A stretch of DNA of 64,000 bases from NCBI GenBank assembly GCA_011089965.1, contig JAANAU010000003.1, positions 62,001 to 126,000 of the forward strand. The letters run 5' to 3'. Below the pieces are notes generated by a model. That model was not told the origin of the DNA, ran no database searches, and saw nothing but the letters and a program-made list of their open reading frames with translations. This document shows, piece by piece, positions 10,266 to 25,358 of this stretch. A program made the translations under genes and the position numbers. Position 1 is the stretch's first letter, and each line of letters starts with the position of its first letter. The stretch is from Magnetococcales bacterium (GTDB lineage Bacteria; Pseudomonadota; Magnetococcia; Magnetococcales; Magnetaquicoccaceae).

Positions 10266-10305
10266 GAAGTCACCTCAAGCCAAAGTGTGGTTGTCGGGAA
10301 ACTGT

Positions 10306-11076
10306 TCAATGTTTGGTTTTTTCATGCCCGCGACGACCATCACGCTGTTTGATTTCGTTCCAGAGGGCGCGATAGGCTTGGGCCTCTGAACTCTCGCGTG
10401 CATACGAGAAGACCGGGGAGCGTTTCACTCCCATGGCTTCGATAATGTTGGATTCAGGAATGATCGATTGCAGAAAGATCGGATGCTTCCCGAAGACGTT
10501 GCGCGTCACCACCCGATGGATCGGTTTATGGTCATTGATCATGTTGAAGAACGGCAGCACCTGGAGACGATTGGCGCGCCGTTTGACCAGAAACTGCACC
10601 AGGCTGTTGTAGGCCCGCAAAGACAAAGGGGTGGGGATGAGCGGGACCAGCAGCACGTCCGACATCTGGAATACATTTTCCGCAACGACGCCGATACCGG
10701 GAGGGCAATCGACAAAGACATGATCAAATTGATCTTTTAATGGTTTTAATATTTTTTGCAGAGCCAGCAGCGGCTTAGAGTGGTGATCGATCTGGGTCTC
10801 CATGTGGCGATAGGAGAGATCGGCAGGCAGAAGATCCAGATTGGGGTAACCGGTCATGCGCAGCATGGATTGCGGATCGGGATGGTGGCCCAAAAGTTCT
10901 TTGGTCCCACCTTTGATCACGGGTTTGACACATAAATAATAGCTGGTGCTGCCCTGCGGATCGAGATCCCAGATCAGGGTTCTGGCCCCTTCCGAGGCGG
11001 AAAGATAGGCGAGATTGACAGCCGTGGTCGTCTTGCCGACGCCGCCCTTGATGTTATACAGGGAAAAGATCTTCAT
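10306..11076 (-). CDS. ParA/MinD-type partitioning ATPase
   Basis: A 256-residue ParA-family ATPase. The deviant Walker A motif is YNIKGGVGKTTTAVNLA near residues 8-24, followed by WDLDPQGSTSYY (A' motif) and the Walker B segment HVFVDCPPGIG. The ATG at 11076 has a GGAG site in CGGGAGTACCC; longer in-frame versions would add 62 residues of unrelated composition. There is no ParB or obvious parS site beside it, so it is an orphan ParA of the kind that positions protein cargo (chemosensory arrays, carboxysomes, granules) rather than the chromosome. The TPR protein gene follows and may be the partner. The gene is transcribed away from rnfH, with a 184-base gap between them. Confidence 0.93.
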   Translation of the reverse strand: MKIFSLYNIKGGVGKTTTAVNLAYLSASEGARTLIWDLDPQGSTSYYLCVKPVIKGGTKELLGHHPDPQSMLRMTGYPNLDLLPADLSYRHMETQIDHHSKPLLALQKILKPLKDQFDHVFVDCPPGIGVVAENVFQMSDVLLVPLIPTPLSLRAYNSLVQFLVKRRANRLQVLPFFNMINDHKPIHRVVTRNVFGKHPIFLQSIIPESNIIEAMGVKRSPVFSYARESSEAQAYRALWNEIKQRDGRRGHEKTKH

Positions 11077-11260
11077 GGGTACTCCCGTACTCCTTGAGCC
11101 AGATGTGATACGGACCGGATGGCTGCATCGATCCAATTCTACCAATATAACGGTTTTGTCGGTTGAAAGAAAGTCGATAATGCGGGTATGCTGTTGCAGT
11201 AGTGTCCGGGAAGTCACCGGTCTTTGCGGAGTGGACGGTTCAATCGGGAGGAGAGGGACC

Positions 11261-11554
11261 ATGAAAGTGGCTGTGGCCTATGCCGAGGATAAACGGCAGG
11301 TGGTGTTGAACCTGGATGTCGCCAGCGGATCCACAGCGGAGGCAGCGATCCGGCAATCCGGCATCCTGGGTCGTTTTCCGCGTCTGGATCTGGGCGTGAA
11401 CAAAATCGGTATTTTCAGCAAACTGGTTCCTTTGGACCAGGTGCTCAACGAAGGGGATCGGGTTGAGATCTATCGGCCTGCCGAGGGCAAACCCCCGAAG
11501 AAAGAGCGTGCTGCCAAAGGGGGAGCGGCTGCCACTGCGGATGAGAGTGAATAG
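11261..11554 (+). CDS. RnfH-family ubiquitin-like protein
   Basis: A 97-residue protein of the RnfH (Ub-RnfH) family: MKVAVAYAEDKRQVVLNLDV opening strands, GSTAEAAIRQSGIL helix and NKIGIFSKLVPLDQVLNEGD ending in RVEIYRP, the typical beta-grasp layout. About 20 basic and Ala/Gly residues follow. The ribosome site GGGAGGAG is strong. RnfH proteins lie near rnf or ratA-smpB genes in other bacteria, but their biochemical role is unknown; neither is present here. truA starts 15 bases later. Confidence 0.88.
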   Translation: MKVAVAYAEDKRQVVLNLDVASGSTAEAAIRQSGILGRFPRLDLGVNKIGIFSKLVPLDQVLNEGDRVEIYRPAEGKPPKKERAAKGGAAATADESE

Positions 11555-11569
11555 AGGGAAGGAGGTGCC

Positions 11570-12367
11570 GTGACCGCTCAAGCCGAAGGTCCGTTGCTCC
11601 GCTATCGTCTGACTTTGGAATACGATGGCAGCCGGTTTGCCGGATGGCAGCGTCAGGCCCGGGGGGTGGTCACGGTCCAGGGTGTGGTGGAGCAGGCTTT
11701 GGAACGGATGTGTGGTCATCCGGTGCTGTTGGTGGGGGCCGGGCGCACCGATACCGGAGTGCATGCCTTGGGACAGGTGGCCCACTTTGACACTGCCAAA
11801 CCTCGTACGTCGCAGGTTTTTTGTCGTGCGCTGAACGTCCTGACCCCTCCGGATGTGACCATTCTGGAGGCAGAGGCTGTCTCGAACCGGTTCCATGCCC
11901 GACGGGCAGCCTGGCGGGAGTATCTCTACCGGATTCTGAACCGTTCGGCGGGTGCGGCATTGGATCGGGGACGGGTGTGGCACCATCCGGGCCGCCTGGA
12001 TTTGACAGCCATGCAGGAGGCTGCGCAATTGTTGCTGGGCCGTCAGGACTTTTCCGCCTTTCGTTCGGCCAACTGCCAATCCCTCACACCGGTGCGTGAG
12101 GTGATCCGGGCCGAGATGCACATCAGGGGGGATGAGATCCATTTTGTCATTCGGGCCAATGCCTTTTTGTACCACATGGTACGCAACATCGTCGGCTCTC
12201 TGGTGCTGGTCGGTCGGAACAAATGGAGTCTGGAGCAGTTTCATACGGTGCTGTTGGGCAAGGATCGTCGTCAGGCCGGTCCCATGGCTCCGGCCCATGG
12301 ACTCTATCTCCAGCGGGTTCATTATGCCGATGCGGCCAATGCTCTTGATTCGGATGAGATCTCATGA
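11570..12367 (+). CDS. truA: tRNA pseudouridine(38-40) synthase TruA
   Basis: A 265-residue TruA that converts uridines 38-40 of the tRNA anticodon arm to pseudouridine. The catalytic aspartate is in GAGRTDTGVHALGQVAHFD; other family motifs are LEYDGSRFAGWQRQ, RFHARRAAWREYLYRI, DFSAFRSA and FLYHMVRNIVGSLVLVGR. It starts with GTG at 11570 behind a GGAGGT site. It is close behind rnfH and 57 bases before the next gene, so these may share a transcript with the downstream cluster. Confidence 0.97.
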   Translation: MTAQAEGPLLRYRLTLEYDGSRFAGWQRQARGVVTVQGVVEQALERMCGHPVLLVGAGRTDTGVHALGQVAHFDTAKPRTSQVFCRALNVLTPPDVTILEAEAVSNRFHARRAAWREYLYRILNRSAGAALDRGRVWHHPGRLDLTAMQEAAQLLLGRQDFSAFRSANCQSLTPVREVIRAEMHIRGDEIHFVIRANAFLYHMVRNIVGSLVLVGRNKWSLEQFHTVLLGKDRRQAGPMAPAHGLYLQRVHYADAANALDSDEIS

Positions 12368-12424
12368 TATGGACCTGCTGTAAGGTTTATAAATCAGGAA
12401 TGACGCAAGCGGGAGTTGAGACCA

Positions 12425-13108
12425 ATGGATGAATGGATCCGGATCCGAAACGATGCTCACTTGGCCTTGACGCGCGCCCAGGATCGTTCCGGGGAATTGA
12501 AGAGTCGTTTCAATCAGATCAAGAAGCAACTGCTGACCAACTCCATACAGCTCGCCCGTGCCGAAGGAGAACGGGAACGCGCCCTGGCTGCCTATGCGAT
12601 TCACCCGGGCAGCGAACGGATGCAGGAGGCATTGACCGAATCCCGCGAACAGGTCAGCCAGATCCGTCAGGAGATCAGCGATCTGGAAACCCTGATGGCA
12701 GCCTCCAAACAGGAGTTTCAAATCCTGGCCAAAGAGATTCCTCTGTTGCGTCAGGCACGGGATCAGTCGGATCAGCTTTTCTGGTTCGGGATGTTTGAAT
12801 CCCTGCGTGAGCGGATCCGTACAGCGGTGGGTGCGGAAGTGGAACAGGCCTATGCTGCGTATGCCGCTTCCTTTGCACGCGATCTGAGCCGGGAAGCGTT
12901 TCTCAAACGGCTGTTCGTGGAGGGGACGGATGCCGAACGCCTGGCAGAACTGCGTCAGCGTATGGCCCAGGCCCATCCCGTGCCCCAATCCAAAGAGTCC
13001 CAGTCCAAAACCTACTCGTTGGCCCCGCCGGAAACGGGCAGCAGTCGCATGTCTGATCCCACACCCGGCGATGAGGCCCGGAACTGGGCGCAAATGGTCC
13101 GGGGCTAA
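12425..13108 (+). CDS. Unrecognised coiled-coil protein upstream of the MamK-like gene
   Basis: A 227-residue soluble protein with no family I recognise. Residues 15-115 are a long charged coiled coil (AQDRSGELKSRFNQIKKQLL ... QVSQIRQEISDLETLMAASK). A helical domain follows (QLFWFGMFESLRERIRTAVG ... REAFLKRLFVEGT), then a Pro/Ser-rich tail. The ATG at 12425 has a GGGAG site nine bases upstream. It precedes the MamK-like actin by 83 bases on the same strand, so it could be a filament-binding or adaptor protein of that cluster; only position supports this. Confidence 0.7.
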   Translation: MDEWIRIRNDAHLALTRAQDRSGELKSRFNQIKKQLLTNSIQLARAEGERERALAAYAIHPGSERMQEALTESREQVSQIRQEISDLETLMAASKQEFQILAKEIPLLRQARDQSDQLFWFGMFESLRERIRTAVGAEVEQAYAAYAASFARDLSREAFLKRLFVEGTDAERLAELRQRMAQAHPVPQSKESQSKTYSLAPPETGSSRMSDPTPGDEARNWAQMVRG

Positions 13109-13191
13109 AGATCCACACTGTTGTTCCATGCCGGGGATCAAGAGGGTCACTTCCTTTTTTTTCTTGCGGCATCATAACCTTGGAGGCAGTC

Positions 13192-14229
13192 ATGACGACC
13201 CATAAGACTGAAAGAGTCTTGCTGTTGGGCATCGATTTGGGCACCGCGCGCACGGCGGTAATGAGCAATCGCCAGTTCAAGGGATTGGTGCATACGGTGG
13301 TCGGGTATCCCAAGGATATCATCGGAGTCAAGATTCTGAACCGCACCCAGGTGGTCGGTGCCGAAGCCATTGAAAAGCGTTCGTTGCTGGATCTTTATTA
13401 CCCTTTGCAAGACGGCATGCTCAAAGAGGCCAGCGAAAAGGATCTGGATGCAGCGCGCGAACTGTTGCAACAGGTGGTGGCCATGGCCACTCCTGCTGCC
13501 GGGGACAAGGTGTGCGGCATCATCGCCATTCCGGCACGGGCTGCTCTGTCCAACAAGGGGCAGCTTCTGAAACTCATGGACGGGATCATGGATACCGCAG
13601 CATTGGTGGCCGCTCCCTTCATGGTGGCCTACGGACAGGATCGGCTCAGCAATGCGTTGATCATCGATGTGGGGGCGGGCACCATTGATCTGTGTGCCAT
13701 GCGAGGCACCATTCCGGGTCCGGATCAGCAGTTGAGCATCTTCAAGGGTGGCAATTATATCGATGGTCTGTTGGAGGCAGCGATTCGCGATGGTCACTCC
13801 GGGGTGCATGTGGATCGTTATCTGGCTCAGGCCATCAAGGAGCGTTACGGCTTTGTCGGCCAGCCTGAACAGCGGGTGGTCGTCCCCTTGCGGATTCATG
13901 GCAAACCGGCTGAAGTGGATGTGACCGAGGCGATTCGCGTCACCTGTGAAACCATTGTTGCCGATATTGTCGAGGGGATCAAACGCATGCTGTTGCAGTT
14001 TGACCCGGAGTGTCAAGCCGCAGCCTTGACCAATCTGGTGCTGGCTGGAGGTGGGGCGCGCATCCGGGGATTGGGGCCGATGATCGAAAACGATCTGCGC
14101 GAATATGGCGAGGTCAAAGTGACCGTGAGCAGTGAACCCGAATTCGCAGCAGCGGCTGGCGCTTTGAAACTGGCTACGGAACTGCCGCCAGAGTATTGGG
14201 ATCAGATCGGCGACGTGGTCAGCCGATGA
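13192..14229 (+). CDS. MamK-type bacterial actin
   Basis: A 345-residue actin-fold ATPase. The nucleotide-binding motifs are GIDLGTARTAVMS (phosphate 1, residues 13-25), LIIDVGAGTIDLCAMRG (phosphate 2, from about 155) and LVLAGGGARIRGLGP (adenosine, from about 281). Between them are stretches I recognise from MamK, the magnetosome-organising actin: VVGYPKDIIGVKIL, YYPLQDGMLKEAS, IAIPARAA, APFMVAYGQD, and the ending ELPPEYWDQIGDVVSR. MreB and ParM lack these. The ATG at 13192 has GGAGG five bases before it. No mam gene lies near; instead a Zorya/Mot-type channel gene follows 31 bases later, so the filament may serve that complex. It could be true MamK or a MamK-like paralogue; a tree would decide. 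Confidence 0.85.
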   Translation: MTTHKTERVLLLGIDLGTARTAVMSNRQFKGLVHTVVGYPKDIIGVKILNRTQVVGAEAIEKRSLLDLYYPLQDGMLKEASEKDLDAARELLQQVVAMATPAAGDKVCGIIAIPARAALSNKGQLLKLMDGIMDTAALVAAPFMVAYGQDRLSNALIIDVGAGTIDLCAMRGTIPGPDQQLSIFKGGNYIDGLLEAAIRDGHSGVHVDRYLAQAIKERYGFVGQPEQRVVVPLRIHGKPAEVDVTEAIRVTCETIVADIVEGIKRMLLQFDPECQAAALTNLVLAGGGARIRGLGPMIENDLREYGEVKVTVSSEPEFAAAAGALKLATELPPEYWDQIGDVVSR

Positions 14230-14260
14230 ATTCGTTCTGGATTGGAATTCCAGGGGGGGG

Positions 14261-17200
14261 ATGAAGATGCGCGCTGGTGTGGCGAGTTTTTTTTCAAACC
14301 TTCTGGCCCTGGTGTGGAGTTTGGCACTGATCGCTGGTGCCCTGGGGGTTGGCATCCATGTGTTTCGCGAACTGGATGTCGTGGCGCTCTCCCGTTGGGC
14401 CGGGTTGCCCAATTTTCTCAGTGTTCCTCTGCAACGTCAGGGGGACAATCTGATCATCGTGACATTGGCCGGTGTGATCGCCGGTTTGTTGGTGTTGTTT
14501 GTGGGGGGGTATGTCTGGCAGGCACTCTGGGATGGGGTGCGTTTGCGTTTGGTGCGGCGCTCCCTGATCAAACGTCTGGGTCGCCTGAATGACCCGGAAC
14601 AGATCCTGCCAGACGCATGGAGTTGGTTCTATTATCCTCATTTCACCCGTTTGTGGCGTGAATATGCCGCTGCCCTCCATCTGGAAAGCCGGTTGGACCC
14701 CCGTACCGGTCTGGTCCATCCCCATCTGCTGGCCACAATTCCCCCTGAGATGGTCTTCAACCAGCAATCGTTGGTCGATCTGCCGATGCGGATCGAATTT
14801 TTTCGACATCTGCCCGGGATTTTGACCGGTTCCGGGATTGTCAGCACCTTTGCCGGTATTCTCATGGGTTTGACCGGGTTTGATCCGGCAGTCGGAGCCG
14901 ATCAGGTGACCCGTGAGTTGCAAGGTCTGTTCATGGGGGTATCCACCGCTTTTTCCGCCTCCTTTTTTGCCATACTCACCGCCATGCTGGTGACGGTGAT
15001 CGAGAAGATCCTGCTGCATTGGCGTTATGGTCAGGTATTGGTTTTCCAAGGGGAGGTGGGTCAACAGATCTCCCGTCAGGCCGTTGGTGTCGAACCAGCC
15101 GTCACATCGGTGGTGCGCGCTCCGGTCTGGGATGAACCGGTCCAAAAGATCATCGATTCCGTGGCCCGTCTGGAGCCGTTGTTGACCCGGGAACAGATCG
15201 GACGCGAGGAGTCCACCCTGGCCATCTCCCTGAATCTGAACGGGGTCATGGCCACCGTGGAACGTGCTCTGGAGTCGTGGGTGGCCTATGAGAGCAAACG
15301 GCGTGACGAGGAGCGGTCTGCCTGGACCACCCTGGAGCGCCATCTGACGGCCATGGATCAAAACCTGCGCCATGAAATCGGATTGCAGGCCGATGTGAAA
15401 GGGGTGGGAGAACGGATGGCCGGATTGCTGGAGCGTCAGATGTCGCTGTGGCAGGAGGGATTGAAACAGCACAAGGAACAGAATGCCGCGTTGATGCGGT
15501 TGATTGCGGTGAGCGAAGGGCTGGATCAACGGTTGGACCGCCTGCAAAGCTGGATGGCCGATGAATGGCGTCAACAGCAGGCGAGTCGGGCAGCGCAAGA
15601 GGAGCGGTTGGCAGCCTGGGCTGAACGGCTGACCCACCAACTGGAGCGGTTGCAGGATTCTGTCCATGCTTCGCATGACACCCCAACCACAGGTTACGGT
15701 CTGGAACAGATCGGTCAACAGTTGGATCAGCAGCTCTCCTGGATGCGCGAGGATACGGCAGCGCGTCAGGTGAGCATGGGTGAGATCGTGCAGGGATTGG
15801 AACAGTTGGATGACCGTTTGCGTCAGCAGCTCAACCGTTGGCGTGAGGAGTCCACGTCACGTCGTGATGGTGTGGGTCAGGTCCATCAGGGGCTGGAACG
15901 ATTGGGTGCCGAATTGCAGCAGCAGTTGACAGGGATGCAACAGCAGTTTGCACGCGCCAACGCAGAGTCCCAGAGTGTGGCCCACGGATTGGAGCAGTTG
16001 GGCCGACAAATGGATCACCATTTGACCCGGATGTTCGATGCCGCCACGCTGCCTCAGGAGGATCTGCGTGCCGTTGTGGCCGGTGTGGGAACACTTGAAA
16101 AGCAGTTGCAACAACAGCTTGACCAGATGGGTCGGAATGCGCAGGCGCGGCAGGCCGATGCCCAGGCTCTGCTGCGGGTGGCAGAGCAGGTGGAAAAACA
16201 ACAACAGGAGATCGCAGCGCGCCTGGAGAGTTTCGATGGGGTGGCGGCGGGTGTGGAGCGTCTGGGTGGCCAGTTGGAGGCGCAACTGGCCTGTCTGCGT
16301 GACGGCCTGGCAGTGGGTCAACAGGGGCAGACCCGGCTTGGTCAGGGTTTGGCCCACCTGGCTACCCAACTGGAGCAACAACTGGAGGAGATGCGTACCG
16401 GGTCTGCTGGTCAGCGTGCCGGTGTTGCCGTTCTGGAGAGCGGGATGGAGCGGCTGGGGGAGCGGTTGGGAGAGCGGTTGGAGCGGCAACTGACCTGGCT
16501 GGAACAGGAGAGCAGCGTTCAGCGTGAGGCCGCAGCGAGCCGGAACGGTCGTCTGGTCGAATCGCTTCAGGGGATTGATCGGCAACTGGAGCGTCAAGGC
16601 GGGGAGTTGAGCGCAGTGGCAGCGCGTCATCCGGACTGGGTGCGACGCGCAGAAGAGGGGATGGGGGCACTGCGTGCGCTTATGGAGCGGATCGATGCCC
16701 AGGGGCATGAGAGTCGTCAATTCCGCGATCAGGCTCTGGAAACGGGTCACCGGTTGACCCGTGGCGTGACGGAACTGCATGCCCGGATCCCTTCGGGAAC
16801 AGAAATGGCAGGTTGGATCCGGGATGCCCTGGCTGAAACAGGTCAGGCGGCTGAGGGGCGGCATGCCCGGTTGCATGACCGTCTGCGTACCGGTCATGCC
16901 GAGTTGTTGGCCAGGGTGGAGGCAGGTGTGGTGGCCATGGAGGCGGTAAGGGCCGATGGGTCGGGCCTGTTGCGGTTGCTGGAGGCTGTTTCGCGTCGTC
17001 TGGAAGGGTTGCAGGGAGGCTGGCGCGAAGGGATGAGCGAGTTGGCCGAACGGGTGGCCCAGGCGACTCAGGCCATGGATGCCACTTTGCGCGAGGTGTT
17101 GTTGAAGGTGGAACGGGCGGCTGGTTCCAGTGAAGAGGGGATGGCCACGCTGTTTGGGGAGATGGGCCGCGAGATGGAACGGATGCGGCGTCAGATGCGG

Positions 17201-17980
17201 GAATCCGCCGGTCATGTGGCTGCCCAGACCCGTGAATGGCTGCTTGCCACCCGGATGGGTGGGGAAGAGAATCTGCACAGCCTGATGAAAGGGGTTTCCG
17301 AGGAGTTCAAGAGCGCCGTATCGACTCTGGTGGATGAACGCGCTCAACTGGATGGCGACCGGGAGGCCGCCATGGTGGAACGGCTGCTCAGTCAGACCGC
17401 CGAACAGGCCGAAGGGGTCAAGATGGCGGTATTGGGCGAGCTGGATGAAACGGCCAAACAGTTGACTGAGCATCTGCGTGTTTCGGGTGAGGAGCTGGAA
17501 CGCTCCCGAGAAGAGACCTCCCGGGAGGTGGTGCGGGTGATCGCCGAGCGGGTTGAGACTGCGTTTGGCGGAGTGGCGCAAGAGTTGTCGGAGATGCGCA
17601 AGCGTCTGGTGGCTGAACAGAAGGCCATGGAAAACGCCTTGCAACTGTGGGTCAACGAAGCCGCCCGTTCCACGGTCGAAGAGAACCGGGTTCTGGCGCA
17701 ACGGCTCATGGAGGTTCAGAGCCATTTTGAAGAACGCCATCAGGGGGTCATCCATGTCATCGACCAGCTTGGCAAAGGGTTGGAACAGGATCTGGAACAG
17801 TTGCGCGATGGTCTGTATCACAAGAACGAAGAGTCTTCGCGTCATGTTGAGCAGCATCTGAACGAATTGGGTCAACTGCTGGAAGGGGTGGTGACCAGCC
17901 TGGGACGGGAGCAGAGCGTTTTCATTGAAATGCTCGGAGAGCGGTTGGAGTCGTTGCGGCGGCGGTTGCGGGTCAAATAG
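14261..17980 (+). CDS. ZorA/MotA-TolQ-like proton-channel protein with giant coiled-coil tail
   Basis: A 1239-residue membrane protein. Four membrane segments lie at about residues 12-33, 62-86, 182-204 and 220-247; the third and fourth (LPGILTGSGIVSTFAGILMG and GLFMGVSTAFSASFFAILTA) match the ZorA/MotA/ExbB channel core. After residue 280 the rest (about 950 residues) is cytoplasmic, almost entirely helical and Gln/Glu/Arg-rich. It includes eight 32-residue repeats from residue 480. This matches ZorA of the Zorya phage-defence system, a MotA-like stator with a long tail, more than flagellar MotA. The matching ZorB/MotB-like gene is two genes downstream. The position after a MamK-like actin is unusual. 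Its ion and cargo are unknown. Confidence 0.85.
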   Translation: MKMRAGVASFFSNLLALVWSLALIAGALGVGIHVFRELDVVALSRWAGLPNFLSVPLQRQGDNLIIVTLAGVIAGLLVLFVGGYVWQALWDGVRLRLVRRSLIKRLGRLNDPEQILPDAWSWFYYPHFTRLWREYAAALHLESRLDPRTGLVHPHLLATIPPEMVFNQQSLVDLPMRIEFFRHLPGILTGSGIVSTFAGILMGLTGFDPAVGADQVTRELQGLFMGVSTAFSASFFAILTAMLVTVIEKILLHWRYGQVLVFQGEVGQQISRQAVGVEPAVTSVVRAPVWDEPVQKIIDSVARLEPLLTREQIGREESTLAISLNLNGVMATVERALESWVAYESKRRDEERSAWTTLERHLTAMDQNLRHEIGLQADVKGVGERMAGLLERQMSLWQEGLKQHKEQNAALMRLIAVSEGLDQRLDRLQSWMADEWRQQQASRAAQEERLAAWAERLTHQLERLQDSVHASHDTPTTGYGLEQIGQQLDQQLSWMREDTAARQVSMGEIVQGLEQLDDRLRQQLNRWREESTSRRDGVGQVHQGLERLGAELQQQLTGMQQQFARANAESQSVAHGLEQLGRQMDHHLTRMFDAATLPQEDLRAVVAGVGTLEKQLQQQLDQMGRNAQARQADAQALLRVAEQVEKQQQEIAARLESFDGVAAGVERLGGQLEAQLACLRDGLAVGQQGQTRLGQGLAHLATQLEQQLEEMRTGSAGQRAGVAVLESGMERLGERLGERLERQLTWLEQESSVQREAAASRNGRLVESLQGIDRQLERQGGELSAVAARHPDWVRRAEEGMGALRALMERIDAQGHESRQFRDQALETGHRLTRGVTELHARIPSGTEMAGWIRDALAETGQAAEGRHARLHDRLRTGHAELLARVEAGVVAMEAVRADGSGLLRLLEAVSRRLEGLQGGWREGMSELAERVAQATQAMDATLREVLLKVERAAGSSEEGMATLFGEMGREMERMRRQMRESAGHVAAQTREWLLATRMGGEENLHSLMKGVSEEFKSAVSTLVDERAQLDGDREAAMVERLLSQTAEQAEGVKMAVLGELDETAKQLTEHLRVSGEELERSREETSREVVRVIAERVETAFGGVAQELSEMRKRLVAEQKAMENALQLWVNEAARSTVEENRVLAQRLMEVQSHFEERHQGVIHVIDQLGKGLEQDLEQLRDGLYHKNEESSRHVEQHLNELGQLLEGVVTSLGREQSVFIEMLGERLESLRRRLRVK
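15698..16561 (+). repeat. Eight ~32-residue coding repeats in the ZorA-like tail
   Basis: Units of exactly 32 codons begin at residues 480, 512, 544, 576 and 608, then after a 24-residue insertion at 664, 696 and 728 (the last is longer). Each opens G(L/V/M)E(Q/R)L, continues with xxQLxQQLxxM and ends in a variable charged stretch. The DNA copies are diverged, so this is an old protein-level repeat. Confidence 0.75.
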
Positions 17981-18002
17981 CGGCAGTCAGACGGGAGGTG
18001 GG

Positions 18003-19547
18003 ATGCGTATCGAAACGATTCGTCTGCGGATGACGACCGGCAGCGGGAACGAGATGGTGTGTGATCATCCGGCGGTTCGTGCAGCCCTGGTCGGCAAGTC
18101 GCGGCGCGAGGAGAAGCAGGAGTTTTGTTTCGATTCGTTGGATCTCGGACTGTGGCGTCAGGGTGTGCAACTGGTGGTGGAGCGTCAGGGAGTCCGGTGG
18201 TTGGGCCAGCTGATCGGTCTGGTCGGGCGTTCCGAAGTGCGGCAGGAGTGGGATTGCGGCACCGGAGAGCAACCGGACTGGAGTGAACTGAAACGCCTGT
18301 TGGCAGCCTGTTCCATCGAAGAGATCAAATCGAAGGCGTTGCGTCCCTGTCTGTTGGTTCATCGGAAGGAGGAGTGGTGGCGTCTGGAGTATCCGGATGG
18401 CTCCCGCCTCTGGCTGTGTGAAGCGCGCGGTCAATTGGAGTGGCTGGGTGAGGAGGGGGTGACCGAGCCGTTCCACGAGTTGGTTGTACAACATGTGGCA
18501 GGATCCCGGCTGCGTTTTCTGCAAACGGTGTTGGCGTTGGGGCGGCAGGGAGGGGCTTGTCTGGAGCCGTTGTCCCCGGCGGCGCGCGGGTTGGCACGGC
18601 TGGATCCCGGGCCTGTAACGGCCATGGCGTTGGAGCGTGTGGTTTGGGAGGACGGAGAACGGGCGATTGGCGGGTTGGCCAAGGCGGGCGCGGGTCGGAT
18701 TGCCGGGATGCTGGATCAACTGGCGGCGTTGCTGTATGGACCGGAACAGGCCTGTCTGGAGGCGGTGTGCAATCTGGAGCGGGCGGTATCCGGTTTGCGG
18801 CGTCTGATCGGCTGGTTTGCCGAGTGGATGCCGGAGCGGATGCATCGTGACATGGACAATGAGTTGATCTGGCTGGCCGGAGAGATCCGGCCAGCCTGTG
18901 TCGGGGTGGATTTGCGTCAAGTCACTCTGCCTGGCATGCGGCGGCATTTTCCGGAGGTTGTCCATCTGGCCGAGGCCGAGGAGCGTGCCCGTCAGGAGGG
19001 TGGAGCCAGCGTGCAGCGTGCCCGCGAGGCCGTGGACTCCTTTCGGTTTGCCCGTCTCTGGATCGGTTTGGCCACCTGGTTGAGCAGTGAAGAGGGGGTC
19101 AAGGCTGCTCTGCGGGACAGCGAGGCCGGGGTGCGGGTGCGGCAGCAGGCCACGGTGGATGAACAGGCCCAGACCTTGTTGCGTCCATTGATCAAACCCC
19201 TGAAGAGCGCATGGGCCGGATGGGGTCGCAATGTCCCTGTGACGCTGGAAGAGTTGCGTGAACTGCTTGTGTGGGCCGAAGCGTTGGAAGATGCATTGGG
19301 GTTGTGTGGTGGCTGTTGTGAGGAGCGGAGAGCCTCTGGCTGGCACGAGGGGGTGACGGTTGTGGCAGGTGCGGCACGCGCTGTGGTGGCCTTGGAGGAG
19401 GAGCGGCAGTTGTGGCAGCGTTTGGCAGCGGATTGGTCTGGTCAACCGGTGGCGGCTCTGTTTCGGGGTTGGCAGGGGGCGCGACTGGAGGGTGCCTGGC
19501 AGGATTGGGAGCGTGCCTGGGCCTCTTTTTCGTGCCATTTGGCCTGA
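18003..19547 (+). CDS. CYTH-CHAD domain protein (degenerate)
   Basis: A 514-residue soluble protein. The N-terminal 165 residues resemble a CYTH (triphosphate tunnel) domain: the stretch FDSLDLGLWRQGVQLVVERQ matches the family pattern FDTxDLxLxxxGxxLRVRxx. The opening MRIETIRLRM lacks the intact ExExK catalytic motif. Residues about 215-505 form a CHAD domain of paired helices (AVCNLERAVSGLRRLIGWFA, then ELIWLAGEIRPA); the usual RDxDV element is altered to ACVGVDLRQ. CHAD domains bind polyphosphate and can target proteins to polyphosphate granules; loss of the CYTH motif suggests binding rather than hydrolysis. The ATG at 18003 has GGGAGGTGGG before it. It lies 22 bases after the ZorA-like gene and 18 before the ZorB-like gene, so all three are surely co-expressed. 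Confidence 0.75.
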   Translation: MRIETIRLRMTTGSGNEMVCDHPAVRAALVGKSRREEKQEFCFDSLDLGLWRQGVQLVVERQGVRWLGQLIGLVGRSEVRQEWDCGTGEQPDWSELKRLLAACSIEEIKSKALRPCLLVHRKEEWWRLEYPDGSRLWLCEARGQLEWLGEEGVTEPFHELVVQHVAGSRLRFLQTVLALGRQGGACLEPLSPAARGLARLDPGPVTAMALERVVWEDGERAIGGLAKAGAGRIAGMLDQLAALLYGPEQACLEAVCNLERAVSGLRRLIGWFAEWMPERMHRDMDNELIWLAGEIRPACVGVDLRQVTLPGMRRHFPEVVHLAEAEERARQEGGASVQRAREAVDSFRFARLWIGLATWLSSEEGVKAALRDSEAGVRVRQQATVDEQAQTLLRPLIKPLKSAWAGWGRNVPVTLEELRELLVWAEALEDALGLCGGCCEERRASGWHEGVTVVAGAARAVVALEEERQLWQRLAADWSGQPVAALFRGWQGARLEGAWQDWERAWASFSCHLA

Positions 19548-19565
19548 TACCTCAGGACTGGATAT

Positions 19566-20366
19566 ATGATGATCAATGGGTGGCGTCAACAGCGTTCCGT
19601 AACCGATGAAGGGCCGGGAAATCCTTTCTGGATCAGTTATGCGGATCTGATGACAGCTTTGGTCATGTTGTTTCTGGTGGTGATGAGCATCTCCATGGTG
19701 GCGATTGCCTCGCGTCCCATGGTCGAGAAGCGCCAGCGGGCTGGAGACATCCGCATGATCCTGACCCAGTTGGATCTGAAGGCCGAAGAGGCCGGTTTGG
19801 ATCTGCGGGTCAATCACGAAGATCACTCCATCAGTTTTGGAGACAAGGCCCGTTTTGCCTTCAACAGCTTTCAGTTGACCCCCGAGGCGGTGGAGATTCT
19901 GCGCGCCTTTGTGCCGATCCTGTTGGAGGTGCGGGCCGGGGTAGAGGGGGAGCGGTGGATGGAGCGGGTCCACATTGAAGGGTATACCGATGCAGCAGGA
20001 AGTTATTTGTATAATGTGGATTTGAGTCTCAAGCGCGCCCAGTCGGTGTTGTGTGCATTGTTGTCCGTGGACCAACCTCCGGAAAAATTGCGTCGTTTGC
20101 AGCAGTTGCTGATCATTGACGGGGCCTCGGTCACGGCCATCAAGGCCAGTCCGGAGGAGAGTCGGCGTGTGGAGATCCGGTTGGAGTTTCGCCGTGTCGG
20201 TGATGAATCGACCAGGATCAAATCACCACCCGATCTGCCGATGGGGCGTTGTGCCATTCCCATGGAAGAAGGAAAAAAAGTACCTGCCAAATCCACGGGC
20301 AGCGATTCCACCCATGCACCGGCCTGGTTGGAACCCTTCCGTGAACAGCTTTTGGAGCAACCTTGA
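19566..20366 (+). CDS. ZorB/MotB-like peptidoglycan-anchoring OmpA-domain protein
   Basis: A 266-residue stator partner. One membrane helix follows a short cytoplasmic N-terminus: NPFWISYADLMTALVMLFLV, with the ion-carrying aspartate at D27, as in MotB and ZorB. A periplasmic linker (45-90) leads to an OmpA/MotB-like domain: FNSFQLTPEAVEILR, HIEGYTDAAGSYLYNVDLSL with KRAQSVLCAL, and ESRRVEIRLEF. The C-terminal 45 residues are Pro/Lys-rich. With the ZorA-like protein it should form an A5B2-type stator anchored to the cell wall. No flagellar genes and no ZorC, ZorD or ZorE are nearby. The ATG at 19566 lies 18 bases after the CYTH-CHAD stop. Confidence 0.88.
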   Translation: MMINGWRQQRSVTDEGPGNPFWISYADLMTALVMLFLVVMSISMVAIASRPMVEKRQRAGDIRMILTQLDLKAEEAGLDLRVNHEDHSISFGDKARFAFNSFQLTPEAVEILRAFVPILLEVRAGVEGERWMERVHIEGYTDAAGSYLYNVDLSLKRAQSVLCALLSVDQPPEKLRRLQQLLIIDGASVTAIKASPEESRRVEIRLEFRRVGDESTRIKSPPDLPMGRCAIPMEEGKKVPAKSTGSDSTHAPAWLEPFREQLLEQP

Positions 20367-20434: not shown

Positions 20435-22993
20435 ATGAACATCTTCAAGAATTCATTATGGCTGTCATGCGGTTTGTTTCTGATGACTGTCGGGAATCAG
20501 CTTCAGGCCGCTGCGCCAACGGTTATGAATCCAATCCAGGATCAGACCTGGACCGGGAGTGGAGTGAAGAGCTTTCAGGTGCCGGCGAATACCTTCCGGG
20601 ATGTGGATCAGGATCTGCTGACCTATACGGCTTCGATGGCCGATGGCACGGCATGGCCCTCCTGGTTGCGTTTTGTTGCGGCCACTCGGACCTTTTCCGG
20701 TAATCCACCGGTCGGGGTGATCCGGTTGCCATTGCGGGTCACGGCCAGTGATGGTCGCGGGGGGAGGGTGAGCAGCCGTTTCAATCTGAATCTGGTGAAT
20801 GTCAATGATCGGCCTGTGGTGCGTCAGCAGTTGACCAGTCAGGTGTGGAGTGGTTCTGGAATCAAATCGTTTCAGATCCCAACAGAGCTGTTTCGAGATG
20901 GGGATGGTGATCGTTTGACCCATTCGGTCCGCATGGCAGATGGAAGCACATGGCCCTCCTGGTTGCGTTTTTCCGCAGCGACCCGAATGCTGTCGGGTAA
21001 TCCTCCATCCGGCACCCGTACCTTGGCGCTCAAGGTTCAGGTCAGCGATGGTCATGGAGCCACGGCCTCGACCGTGTTTGATCTGGTGACACGCGCGGGC
21101 AATGATCTCCCGGTGGTGACAACCCCACTGGCCAGTCAGACATGGAATGGCAGCGGCGTGCAGAGTTTTCAGATTCCGGTTGCGACTTTTTCGGATGCCG
21201 ATGGTGACCGTTTGAGCTACACCGTGAAACAGGCCAATGGCTCTGCCCTGCCGACCTGGTTGAGTTATGCAAGCAGCACCCGAACCCTGTCCGGCAATCC
21301 ATCAGCCGGTCTGACGGCTCTCAACCTGTTGGTGACGGCCACGGATGGCAAAGGTGGGACGGCCACCACCCCTTTGACTTTGAACTTTGGTTCTGCAACC
21401 AATGATGCACCCGTGGCAGTGAATGACTCTTTGACTGTGAGCGGATCCAATCCGGTTGCCGACACACTGACCGCTACTGATGCAGACCGGGATGTCTTGA
21501 CCTACCTGATTGTTGGCCAACCGGCTTCTGGTCGCGTCACTCTGACCAATTCTGCTGCCGGAACCTATACCTACACGGCCAATGCCGGGGCTGTCGGTAC
21601 AGACCGTTTCACGTTCAAGGTCAATGATGGCCGTCAGGATTCCAATGTGGCGACTGTTACGGTCACTGTCAGCAACGCGAATTCGATCCCGGTGGCCAAC
21701 AATGGCACGCTCACCATTCGTCAGGGTGCGGTTGCACGTGGAACTCTGTCGGCCAGCGATGCCGATGGCAACGGGTTGATCTACTCTATTGTTGCCAATG
21801 GCACCAAAGGAAGAGCAGAACTGACGGATCCGGCAACCGGGGCTTATACCTATACACCCAATGCCACCAGCATCGGAAACGATACGTTCACTTTCAAGGT
21901 CAATGATGGTGTAACCGATTCCACGACAGCCACCATGACTGTCACGATCACCTCTCCGACCTCTTTGCCCGCCACAGGGGTGAGGGTTTCTTTGAACAGC
22001 GGGGATGACGGGGCGCTGCGGAAGGGAGAAGTCTGGCCCGTACCGCGTTTCACCGATCACGGCAATGGTGCAGTGACCGATCACCTGACTGGTTTGGTGT
22101 GGCTCAAACAGGCCGATTGTCTTGGCACTGCCGCCAGTTTGACGGCTGCCGTCAATCTGGTGGGTGCCCTGGAGGGCAATGGCGGGCAGTGTGGACTCCA
22201 GGATCGCTCTCAGCGTGGAGCCTGGCGCGTACCCAATCGTGTGGAGTTGGAAAGTCTGGTGGACTACTCCCGTATCGGCCCTGCTCTTCCAGAGAATCAC
22301 CCTTTCCTGGGGTTCCCTTTGAACACCACACGGATTTTCTGGTCGAATACGGCTCAGTTCAATGGAAGTTCGATTTGTTGGGCCGTGGATTTCAGGCTCG
22401 GGAGTCAGGATCGTTCCGCCAACTCCTCCAGTCTGGTTTGGGCGGTACGTGATGGCACGGCAACCGGTCGGGTGGCGTTGCGACAAACCGGTCAGACCCG
22501 CTCTGTTGTGACCGGGGATGATGGGAATCTGCGCAAGGGAGTGGCCTGGACCAGCGACAGCCGATTCGTGGATCGCCAGGATGGCACCATCATGGATCAA
22601 TTGACCGGGTTGGTATGGTTGAAGAACATGTTCCGCTGTCCGGATAATACCGAGTTGTCGGGATCCGTGACCCGGGTATTGGAGCGGGCCGCAGGGTTGC
22701 AGCAGGGCGTGTGCGGTTTGACCGATGGCTCCCGTGCCGGGGATTGGCGCGTGGCCAATATCCGGGAGGCGGCCAGCTTGCAGGATATCGATCAGACTGA
22801 TGGTGGTTCAGCCTGGGCATCACCGTTGTTCAATGGTTCATGGATCGGTTGGACCAGTACGCCGGTGGCCAATGATCCTCTGCGGTACTGGACTGCGGTT
22901 TTCACGGCCGCATATGTCGAGAATCAGGAGATCTCCCGGAATGGATCCCCGGTGGTTTACATGGGGTTTTATGTGCGTGACGAGCGTCCGTGA
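20435..22993 (+). CDS. Secreted protein with cadherin-like/Ig repeats and two Lcl (DUF1566) domains
   Basis: An 852-residue secreted protein. The signal peptide is MNIFKNSLWLSCGLFLMTVG ... QAAAP. Three CADG/He_PIG repeats of about 98 residues follow (TWTGSGVKSFQVPANTFRDV, VWSGSGIKSFQIPTELFRDG, TWNGSGVQSFQIPVATFSDA). Then come two cadherin-like Big units (TLTATDADRDVLTYLIVG ... FTFKVNDGRQDSN, and TLSASDADGNGLIYSIV ... FTFKVNDGVTDST). Residues 510-850 hold two Lcl_C/DUF1566 lectin-like domains, each with TGLVWLK and an AWRVPNR or DWRVANI motif. It is probably a cell-surface adhesin or cargo. The TpsA gene begins eight bases later, so it is likely part of the same transcript. Confidence 0.88.
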   Translation: MNIFKNSLWLSCGLFLMTVGNQLQAAAPTVMNPIQDQTWTGSGVKSFQVPANTFRDVDQDLLTYTASMADGTAWPSWLRFVAATRTFSGNPPVGVIRLPLRVTASDGRGGRVSSRFNLNLVNVNDRPVVRQQLTSQVWSGSGIKSFQIPTELFRDGDGDRLTHSVRMADGSTWPSWLRFSAATRMLSGNPPSGTRTLALKVQVSDGHGATASTVFDLVTRAGNDLPVVTTPLASQTWNGSGVQSFQIPVATFSDADGDRLSYTVKQANGSALPTWLSYASSTRTLSGNPSAGLTALNLLVTATDGKGGTATTPLTLNFGSATNDAPVAVNDSLTVSGSNPVADTLTATDADRDVLTYLIVGQPASGRVTLTNSAAGTYTYTANAGAVGTDRFTFKVNDGRQDSNVATVTVTVSNANSIPVANNGTLTIRQGAVARGTLSASDADGNGLIYSIVANGTKGRAELTDPATGAYTYTPNATSIGNDTFTFKVNDGVTDSTTATMTVTITSPTSLPATGVRVSLNSGDDGALRKGEVWPVPRFTDHGNGAVTDHLTGLVWLKQADCLGTAASLTAAVNLVGALEGNGGQCGLQDRSQRGAWRVPNRVELESLVDYSRIGPALPENHPFLGFPLNTTRIFWSNTAQFNGSSICWAVDFRLGSQDRSANSSSLVWAVRDGTATGRVALRQTGQTRSVVTGDDGNLRKGVAWTSDSRFVDRQDGTIMDQLTGLVWLKNMFRCPDNTELSGSVTRVLERAAGLQQGVCGLTDGSRAGDWRVANIREAASLQDIDQTDGGSAWASPLFNGSWIGWTSTPVANDPLRYWTAVFTAAYVENQEISRNGSPVVYMGFYVRDERP

Positions 22994-23000
22994 TTGTGGC

Positions 23001-25358
23001 ATGCGGGTCGGGATTGCGTTGTTGGCTGTCGGGTGCATGGGGCAGCCAATTCCGGTAACGGCAGCCTCCCGGATTGCCTTTGATGGTTCGCTGGGGAGTG
23101 GTGGCGCTGTGACCGGAGTGCAGGGGGTGTATGCCATTGACCAGGCACGCGGCACCACCCGTGGCAACAATCTGTTTCACAGCTTTTCCCGATTTTCGGT
23201 CGGGACCGGGGACACTGCCCGTTTCACCGGTTCCGGGGTGAGCAACATCATTACCAGGGTCACGGGCGGTGAGATGACAACCATCGATGGACGACTGGAG
23301 TCGGCCATTCCTGGCGCCAACCTTTATCTGCTCAATCCGCACGGAGTGATGTTTGGCCGGAATGCCTCTTTGAATCTCTCCGGCTCCCTGCATGTTGCCA
23401 CAGCCGATTACCTGGCCTTTCCGGATGGCACCCGTTTTCCAACCGATTCTGCCCGTTCTGTAGGTTTGGCCTCCGTGGATCCAGTGGCTTTTGGATTTCT
23501 GGGGGGCAGGGCTGAGGGTGTGACCGTGCGTGGAGCTTTTTTGGAACTGCCTGCTGGTCAGGGAATGACTTTGATCGGTGGACCGGTCTCCCTGGAGAAT
23601 GCCACACTGTTCGTGGAAAGCGGTCGAGCCAACCTGGTGGCAACCAATGGCCCGGGCGAAGTGACCTTGAGGGCTGAATCGGTCGCCTTGCAGGGCTTTC
23701 CTGCGCTGGCCGATGTGACTTTGCAGCGCAATGAGCCGTTTCGTTCATTCTGGTCTGGTTTTGGTGAGACCTGGTTTTATGGGGATATTGGCACATCCGG
23801 GACCGGGCCTGGTCAACCAGGTGGCCAGGTCTTTCTGACCGGAGATCGTGTTGCCCTGACCGGATCAACGATTGGCAACAACAACGGTGCAGACACCTCG
23901 GGAGGTTCGGTGCGGATTGAGGCCAGCCGTGAAATGGTGCTGGATGGCTCTGGTCCCAATCCTGGCATCAACGGGGCGGTGCAAAATGGAACGTATGCTG
24001 CCGGGGATGCCGGTTCAATCCAGATTTCTGCTCCGCGTGTTGTCCTGAAACATGGTGGATCGCTCTCCGGACATACCAAGGGCAGAGGGATGGGCAGTGA
24101 GATCACGGTGACCACTCAGGAGTTGATTCTGGAAGAGCAGGCCGGGATCTATGCCAATGCCTTTGCATCTGGGCCAGGAGGGCGCATTGCCATTCATGCA
24201 GAGCGGATCTCCATGTCCGGAGGCTCCCAGATCAACTCCTTTGCCCGAGGGTTTGGGTCGGGAGGAGAGGTTGTCATACAGGCGCACGAACGGCTGTTGA
24301 TCGATGGTCAGAGTGCAGAAGGGGCGATCAGTGGCATGCATGTCACCACACGTGGGTTTGGACAGGGAGGAACTCTGACCCTGGAGACACCCTGGCTGAG
24401 ATTGTTGCATGGTGGGGGATTGGTTGCCACCACTTCTGGCGCAGGCCATGCGGGTTCATTGAGTGTGCTGGCCGCACGTCTGGAGATGGATGGGGGGATG
24501 ATCCAGGCAGAGACCAGGAGTTATGGGGATGCCGGACAGATCATGATGGATGCCGGGCAGATGGAGATGTCCAACCAGTCACGCATCTCAACCACAGCCC
24601 AAAGCAGCGGACAAGGGGGCGATGTGGTGATGCACATCTCGGAGTTGGTCATGCGTGGTGCCAGTCGGATCGAAAGCTCCACCCAGGAGCAGGGAAGCGG
24701 AGGCACCATTCAGATTCATGCGGTGCGCACACGGCTGGAGGATGAAAGTGCAATTGTTGCCAATAGCACCTTGCCCTATGCACTTGCCGGACGAGCCGGG
24801 TCTGTACAACTCCGTTCTTCTGACACCCTGATCATGAATCATGGTACGATCTCTTCCAGTGCCGAGAGTGGCGGAGGCGGGGATCTGGAAATTGCCGTGG
24901 GGCAGATGATCCATTTGAGCGATTCTGCCCTGACCACTTCGGTACGCGGTGGAGATGGCAATGGGGGCAACATTCGTGTTGACCCCAGGTTTCTGATTCT
25001 GGAGCGGACGCAGGTCACTGCCAATGCCTACGAAGGGGCGGGAGGCAATGTACATCTTCAGGCCGATACCCTGATTCAGGATCCTGCCACCAGGATCACG
25101 GCCTCATCGGCTTTGGGGATTCAGGGTACGGTGGTGATCGATACGCCCGAGATCAATGCCACAGAGGGGCTGGTGGCTGTCAATACCGGTTTTTTTGATG
25201 CATCTGCGTTGATGAATCAACAGTGTGCGGCACGCCGTTCCGGCAAGGTGAGCACTCTGGTGGTATCCACCCCTGGAGGATTGCCAGAGATGCCGGGTGA
25301 TGTGCGTCCGGCAGGGATTGGGCAGCTCTCTGCCCACTGTGCAACGGATCTTCCTTGA
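23001..25358 (+). CDS. Two-partner secretion exoprotein TpsA (filamentous haemagglutinin type)
   Basis: A 785-residue exoprotein. A short signal (MRVGIALLAVGCMGQPIPVT) is followed by the TPS secretion domain: SRIAFDGSLGSGG, GNNLFHSFSRFSVGTGDTAR, a segment with NIITRVTGGEMTTIDG, and YLLNPHGVMFGRNASLNLSG (NPNG-like motif as NPHG). The rest is a right-handed beta-helix of glycine-rich turns (GDAGSIQISAPR, GSGGEVVIQA and many similar). The end FDASALMNQQCAARRSG, followed by GGLPEMPGD, matches the conserved C-terminus of the cyanobacterial-type TpsA group. It is small for the class. The stop overlaps the tpsB start by one base, so the two are made together. Confidence 0.9.
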   Translation: MRVGIALLAVGCMGQPIPVTAASRIAFDGSLGSGGAVTGVQGVYAIDQARGTTRGNNLFHSFSRFSVGTGDTARFTGSGVSNIITRVTGGEMTTIDGRLESAIPGANLYLLNPHGVMFGRNASLNLSGSLHVATADYLAFPDGTRFPTDSARSVGLASVDPVAFGFLGGRAEGVTVRGAFLELPAGQGMTLIGGPVSLENATLFVESGRANLVATNGPGEVTLRAESVALQGFPALADVTLQRNEPFRSFWSGFGETWFYGDIGTSGTGPGQPGGQVFLTGDRVALTGSTIGNNNGADTSGGSVRIEASREMVLDGSGPNPGINGAVQNGTYAAGDAGSIQISAPRVVLKHGGSLSGHTKGRGMGSEITVTTQELILEEQAGIYANAFASGPGGRIAIHAERISMSGGSQINSFARGFGSGGEVVIQAHERLLIDGQSAEGAISGMHVTTRGFGQGGTLTLETPWLRLLHGGGLVATTSGAGHAGSLSVLAARLEMDGGMIQAETRSYGDAGQIMMDAGQMEMSNQSRISTTAQSSGQGGDVVMHISELVMRGASRIESSTQEQGSGGTIQIHAVRTRLEDESAIVANSTLPYALAGRAGSVQLRSSDTLIMNHGTISSSAESGGGGDLEIAVGQMIHLSDSALTTSVRGGDGNGGNIRVDPRFLILERTQVTANAYEGAGGNVHLQADTLIQDPATRITASSALGIQGTVVIDTPEINATEGLVAVNTGFFDASALMNQQCAARRSGKVSTLVVSTPGGLPEMPGDVRPAGIGQLSAHCATDLP

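Follow-up and report, generated by a model that had tools for sequence, protein, structure and literature searches.

A ZorAB-type motor operon of Magnetococcales with its own partner genes and a MamK actin

Why does the gene of a MamK-type actin share an operon with both subunits of a ZorAB-type stator? The question is raised by four genes at positions 13192–20366 of a 64,000-nucleotide stretch, here called the window, from a Magnetococcales bacterium (assembly GCA_011089965.1, contig JAANAU010000003.1, positions 62,001–126,000 of the forward strand). An earlier reading made from the letters of this stretch (the sequence-only reading) had described a MamK-like actin, a ZorA/MotA-like channel, a CYTH-CHAD protein, and a MotB/ZorB-like wall anchor, and had proposed either an ion-driven machine acting on an actin filament or on polyphosphate granules or a Zorya relative with swapped effectors. 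The four gene identities, their order, and the intergenic gaps of 31, 22, and 18 bases are borne out by sequence, profile, and fold matches; all four open reading frames lie on the + strand. The operon and the features within it that matter below are as follows.

13192..14229, + strand, mamK paralogue (P0001, 345 residues), gene 1 of the operon; NCBIfam MamK, PDB 5jyg, and tree
13612..13614, + strand, MamK codon 141, where Ala replaces the catalytic Glu (E143 of AMB-1 MamK) and the D161 equivalent is kept
14261..17980, + strand, ZorA-type stator subunit (P0002, 1239 residues); PADLOC ZorA1, PDB 8qyh, AlphaFold2 model, and Foldseek
15581..16540, + strand, 32-residue repeats in the ZorA tail (residues 441–760); self-similarity exceeds that of shuffled sequences at lags 32, 64, and 96
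17909..17977, + strand, conserved C-terminal 23-residue tail-tip peptide, EQSVFIEMLGERLESLRRRLRVK, common to the core ZorA C termini read
18003..19547, + strand, CYTH-CHAD protein (P0003, 514 residues), a probable adaptor; orthologues, family profile, and AlphaFold2 model
19566..20366, + strand, ZorB-type subunit (P0004, 266 residues) with a plug/transmembrane helix and an OmpA-type wall-binding domain; PADLOC ZorB1, PDB 8qyd_F, and tree
19644..19646, + strand, codon of ZorB Asp27, the ion-channel aspartate; invariant in 18 orthologues

No terminator-like site was found between the four genes, in a promoter and terminator scan whose hits did not exceed chance. Because the gene order is kept across the window's genus, the operon is not a chance adjacency. 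Judged from sequence, it carries one form of a separate, vertically kept, Magnetococcales-specific ZorAB-type motor with its own partner set (the core unit), which is not a Zorya system because ZorC and ZorD are absent at the core loci.

The stator and its relation to Zorya

The identity of the stator as an ion-driven motor of the ZorAB type is well supported. P0002 and P0004 match the PADLOC models ZorA1 and ZorB1 with 194 and 218 bits, respectively. By sequence, the nearest solved structure to P0002 is E. coli ZorA (8qyh, 3e-25), and the ZorB family profile matches the E. coli ZorB chain 8qyd_F at 2e-64. The AlphaFold2 model of the ZorA membrane domain (predicted local distance difference test (pLDDT) score 87) shows the β-hairpin that is unique to Zorya-type proteins (PMC12505986). 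When this model was searched with Foldseek, the ZorA entries 8qyk/8qyd, followed by 8vvn, came first, and ZorA entries outranked TolQ, ExbB, and the flagellar stators. The aspartate equivalent to Asp27 of ZorB is essential in Zorya (PMC11890865); the wall-binding residues of ZorB are kept as well, and the channel helix of ZorA contains a conserved Thr196 that matches the transmembrane aspartate of the B subunit.

The stator belongs to the same ion-driven motor superfamily as MotAB, TolQR, and ExbBD, all of which carry a plug/transmembrane aspartate in the B subunit, but the tree and the structures place core ZorA and ZorB with Zorya. In the ZorB tree, the core loci cluster together (84/100), next to type I Zorya and distant from MotB, which is represented by a single row on a long branch. 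The assignment of the sequence-only reading to the ZorAB type therefore stands: ZorB groups with Zorya and not inside flagellar MotA/B, and we rejected a flagellar MotAB origin because both the ZorB tree and the nearest structures argue against it.

As in type I Zorya, the ZorA membrane domain of the core unit has a β-hairpin and carries a long tail, and ZorB combines the channel Asp with an OmpA-type domain; matches to the ZorA1/ZorB1 models range from 40–60 bits to 200 bits. In contrast to type I Zorya, the core unit has CYTH-CHAD, HDOD, and, in one genus, MamK in place of ZorC and ZorD. Its ZorA tails extend to at least 1,900 residues and end in a unique 23-residue tip, its stator subunits (P0002 and P0004 included) score under the NCBIfam cut-offs for ZorA1/ZorB1, and it is inherited vertically within one order.

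Profiles for ZorC and ZorD, built from Zorya loci that the order carries apart from the core unit, found neither protein at any of the core loci read (L036–L060, L068, L069, and L072–L095), and membership in Zorya was rejected because these defining components are missing. A ZorB search over 84,980 species draws the same line among the best 80 of 364 matches: the best 24 are all Magnetococcales assemblies, whereas the 56 other loci are type I Zorya, with ZorC present at all of them and ZorD at most.

The core unit and its conserved tail tip

ZorB orthologues with 52–87% identity occur in most of the Magnetococcales genomes searched. The gene order is MamK – ZorA – CYTH-CHAD – ZorB in the window's genus, ZorA – CYTH-CHAD – HDOD – ZorB in the other genera read, and ZorA – HDOD – ZorB in genus g9. 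The sequence-only reading had taken the four genes of the window as the unit and had proposed to look for them together in related genomes. Within the genus they do co-occur in this order, but the unit that is constant throughout the order Magnetococcales consists of ZorA, CYTH-CHAD, HDOD, and ZorB, to which MamK is added in one genus. This core unit is present in at least nine families (f1, f2, f3, f4, f7, f8, f10, f11, and f12). It was not found in the genomes searched from f5, f13, and f14, f9 yielded no ZorB match and f6 only a fragment; as most assemblies are drafts, single absences carry little weight.

The extra gene of the core unit encodes an HDOD protein (Pfam PF08668) in 15 of 15 members. 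In the window's genus, this gene is kept but unlinked, both in the own genome (contig C60 of G000) and in four relatives. Four sampled genomes of genus g9 have the motor without the CYTH-CHAD gene; all that this genus still encodes is a CHAD-only protein. HDOD proteins are usually regarded as non-catalytic signaling or scaffold proteins. The simplest reading is that CYTH-CHAD and HDOD both serve as adaptors.

P0003 itself has no Pfam match, and CHAD is matched in 11 of its 15 orthologues. The family profile matches ygiF (5a60) and CHAD (6qv5), and the AlphaFold2 model of P0003 (pLDDT 89) matches the full-length CYTH-CHAD protein ygiF at E 1e-14. P0003 thus shares domain order and predicted fold with ygiF-type CYTH-CHAD triphosphatases and with the CHAD domains that bind polyphosphate, but it lacks the polyphosphate-contact residues and appears to lack the usual N-terminal motif of CYTH. 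In the Chlorobium domain, the contacts include His253, Arg256, Arg260, and Arg296 (PMC6537752). Mapped through the CHAD structure, these four CtCHAD residues are kept in 0, 2, 2, and 1 of the 15 P0003 orthologues, respectively; the net charge of the P0003 CHAD half is −9. The catalytic ExExK motif of CYTH was not seen at the N terminus in an alignment judged by eye and without structural superposition of the tunnel. Because the contact residues are lost and the CHAD half is negatively charged, canonical polyphosphate binding by P0003 is not supported. In a 399-genome sample, the protein had orthologues (400–608 bits) in Magnetococcales alone, and CYTH-CHAD proteins of other proteobacteria scored at most 238 bits.

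The membrane domain of P0002 (approximately residues 1–275) is followed by a coiled-coil tail of ∼959 residues (∼280–1239) with a hydrophobic period of 3.54 and 7 prolines. Core ZorA orthologues range in total length from 770 to more than 1,900 residues, and their tails vary at least 2.5-fold. Despite this variation, the last 22–23 residues of the core ZorA C termini that were read follow the consensus EQxxFIExLxERLxxLRxxLxxK, which appears in slightly altered form at loci L050 and L051. At L053, where a run of unknown bases interrupts ZorA in the record, the separate C-terminal piece carries the motif. Every Zorya ZorA and every other stator type in the comparison set lacks it. That the tip stays constant while the rod varies in length suggests a role in docking or capping.

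MamK in the operon and beside other stators

The product of gene 1 scores 481 bits against the NCBIfam MamK family (cut-off 400), matches the MamK structure 5jyg at E 4e-111, and retains the nucleotide-binding motifs GIDLGT, D161, and AGGG. MamK was found in all Magnetococcales searched with adequate data. The own genome encodes three copies, of which the operon copy is the third; as contig C1 of this genome carries a magnetosome cluster with mamH, mamE, and mamK, the host is presumably magnetotactic. AMB-1 (PMC2818848), with its MamK-like protein of the islet, and UR-1 (PMC6783814) are known to have further MamK copies that lie apart from the magnetosome cluster. The known MamKs have no described motor partner, whereas P0001 lies in a motor operon and, in the window's subgroup, has exchanged the catalytic Glu for Ala.

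Within the genus, MamK stands upstream of ZorA in all eight testable genomes (those in which the contig reaches that point: G000, G001, G002, G004, G005, G007, G009, and G010), with G004 and G009 counted from fragments at contig ends. In no other genus read does MamK head the core operon. The operon copies group with the non-cluster MamKs of the same genus (100/99), apart from its magnetosome-cluster MamK, and so arose by duplication, either in the genus itself or on its stem. A comparison of one with two joinings gave an approximately unbiased p value of 0.0525 for a single origin of the operon MamKs, so that the operon may have been joined once or twice.

Three operon MamKs, those of the window, L038, and L039, have Ala at the position of E143; Glu occupies it in AMB-1 MamK and in the remaining 77 MamKs of Magnetococcales. 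In other actins, mutating E143 or D161 is reported to abolish ATPase activity and filament dynamics (PMC5059902). Having lost the catalytic Glu, the MamK filament of the window is predicted to be less dynamic.

The link between stator and MamK recurs outside the window's genus and involves several stator subfamilies and gene orders. A search with a profile built on the membrane domains of ZorA-type proteins gave 115 loci in 48 genomes, on contigs that are often short and with some stator subfamilies that are weak relatives of ZorA. Of these loci, 25 lie within 10 kb of a mamK gene and 40 within 20 kb, as compared with 1.1 and 2.2, respectively, expected under uniform placement. The linkage occurs in 10 of 14 families, on 30 contigs besides those with the window-type operon, and in at least four gene orders.

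In the type B arrangement, the order is ZorA-like – ZorB-like – (TPR) – unknown – MamK in family f8 and ZorB-like – TPR – unknown – MamK in family f13. At six f8 loci (L191, L193, L209, L216, L222, and L237), a second mamK ends a same-strand string of ZorA-like, ZorB-like, and unknown genes. Type C, in family f1, consists of ParA – short ZorA-like – ZorB-like – DUF697, divergent to a non-cluster mamK (L199, L241, L200, L202, and L212). In type D, a ZorA/ZorB/ZorC-like set adjoins mamH of the magnetosome cluster, also in the own genome. There, at 9624–15599 of locus L070 (contig C1 of G000), a divergent set of genes for a ZorA-like protein of 1251 residues, a ZorB-like protein of 314 residues, and a ZorC-like protein of 422 residues with an EH signature is followed by feoB. 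No ZorD was seen at L070, and similar sets lie near the cluster at L190, L196, L198, L207, L221, L224, and L233.

In Ca. Magnetaquicoccus UR-1, the magnetosome cluster is flanked by genes that have been described as EH-signature, MotB, and apolipoprotein-like genes with no known relatives in magnetotactic bacteria (PMC6783814). They seem to correspond to the type D genes for ZorC-, ZorB-, and ZorA-like proteins, respectively; the paper gave no Zorya-type identification, and this stator set is distinct from the operon of the window. A further pair, a 1705-residue ZorA-like protein and a ZorB-like protein (L186:2054–8104, genome G027), is encoded ∼12 kb from the only mamK of its genome. The cultured Magnetococcus marinus MC-1 carries ZorA – CYTH-CHAD – HDOD – ZorB at ∼1.222–1.230 Mb, together with another ZorA/ZorB pair close to the magnetosome cluster.

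Several other genes surround the operon in the window. A ParA-type ATPase is encoded at 10306–11262 (− strand), ∼1.9 kb upstream, and ParA-like genes also occur upstream at L038 and L039. Downstream, 68 bases 3′ of zorB, lies the gene of an 852-residue protein (20435–22993, + strand) with Ig-like and cadherin-like repeats and Lcl_C domains, which is not retained in this position in the relatives read. A two-partner secretion pair at 22725–27001 (+ strand) comprises a haemagglutinin-like protein with a two-partner secretion domain and a ShlB/FhaC-type transporter.

What the motor may act on

The reading that we favor, as plausible if short of probable, is that the stator is a non-defense motor which, through its tail tip and the CHAD/HDOD adaptors, acts on MamK filaments in the window's genus. 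By homology with known ZorAB motors, five ZorA and two ZorB subunits would assemble into a 5:2 ion channel of the inner membrane, with ZorB gripping the cell wall. Ion flow would turn or twist the five-stranded ZorA tail, whose 959 helical residues in this species could reach into the cytoplasm by a distance on the order of ∼140 nm. The conserved tip may then dock the CYTH-CHAD/HDOD adaptor that would have replaced ZorC and ZorD. In the window's genus, the operon would also provide a MamK filament of its own for the motor to move, anchor, or order, and in the window's subgroup this filament, predicted to be less dynamic without the Glu, might depend on an outside source of energy. The likely purpose would be to position structures carried by MamK, be they magnetosomes or some other organelle, with respect to the envelope.

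Other functions would also draw on parts of this machinery. With core ZorA and ZorB nearest to type I Zorya, ZorAB could sense phage injection in an anti-phage system in which CYTH-CHAD, HDOD, and MamK have become the effectors. The swap of partners that the sequence-only reading had supposed is indeed found, as CYTH-CHAD, HDOD, and MamK are present and ZorC and ZorD absent. However, the core unit contains no nuclease or helicase gene, its near order-wide, vertical distribution is unlike that of the typically patchy defense systems, it is syntenic with amt/glnK in two families, and true type I ZorA-ZorB-ZorC-ZorD loci (L061–L067) lie apart from it in seven sampled genomes of the order. A defense role for the core unit is unlikely, and its swapped-effector form in our view quite improbable. 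A machine that positions or mobilizes polyphosphate granules through the CHAD domain, the other proposal of the sequence-only reading, would suit organisms in some of which, among the magnetotactic cocci, polyphosphate inclusions take up to 90% of the cell volume (PMC8786505); CHAD domains bind polyphosphate (PMC6537752), and P0003 has the CYTH-CHAD fold. This idea is weakened by the loss of the contact residues in the orthologues and the charge of the CHAD half. The motor is moreover retained without CYTH-CHAD in four sampled genomes of one genus, and the separate CHAD-only protein found in genomes of the order is a better candidate, so that we consider a polyphosphate machine improbable.

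A less specialized function has more in its favor. The motor might perform a general envelope or cell-polarity task, with mamK inserted upstream in one genus and sharing the promoter only. The motor occurs in many families, the operon lacks MamK in all other genera read, and the MamK sequences show a genus-level duplication. Several further observations weigh against an action on MamK filaments. Most genera carry the same motor without an adjacent MamK, so that its basic task does not require MamK. Genera without MamK, and one without CYTH-CHAD, conserve the tip as well; it is thus not a MamK-specific dock, and HDOD, another conserved protein, or the tip itself is the more likely partner. Glu143 is retained in half of the operon MamKs (L036, L041, and L258), so that the predicted loss of dynamics is not general. 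Loci that are linked in members of one family do not count as independent cases, and the expected counts assume uniform placement. Finally, the evidence is comparative throughout, and the contacts among ZorA, CYTH-CHAD, HDOD, and MamK are hypothetical. However, an insertion that merely shares a promoter sits poorly with a linkage kept in every testable genome of the genus, with short gaps or overlap, with the departure of HDOD from the operon in the very genus that bears MamK, and with ZorA-type/mamK linkage far above expectation in other families and gene orders. This recurrent linkage across the order gives the idea of a motor working on actin support beyond that offered by the sequence-only reading. 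We therefore regard the general task as possible but rather doubtful, and place action on MamK before it.

The motor itself is of an already known kind, the ZorAB type; what is new is its partner set. The sequence-only reading knew of no described system with these four genes, and our literature search, which left most subscription papers outside, likewise found no description: in the papers searched on ZorA with CHAD, on Zorya in magnetotactic bacteria, and on MamK with MotA/TolQ, this set was not described, nor did we find a bacterial motor acting on bacterial actins. MamK and other bacterial actins are believed to function through their own polymerization. In a bolder and, on present evidence, unlikely version of the actin reading, the operon would represent the first ion-driven membrane motor known to act on an actin filament in bacteria. 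A motor of the ZorAB type would then generate the force with which magnetotactic cocci position organelles by means of MamK, different MamK copies would each be served by their own motor subfamily, and the motor would have been taken from the Zorya defense lineage or would share its ancestor.

Defense finders would tend to label these loci as Zorya. ZorAB-type motors are known from phage defense; here they are reused with other partners, a finding relevant to the origin of Zorya. The conserved tip and the E143A MamK render the idea of a motor acting on MamK directly testable. Magnetotactic cocci lack mamJ and mamY (PMC6783814), and the wall-anchored motors linked to mamK across the order provide named candidate genes for the organization of their magnetosomes by MamK.

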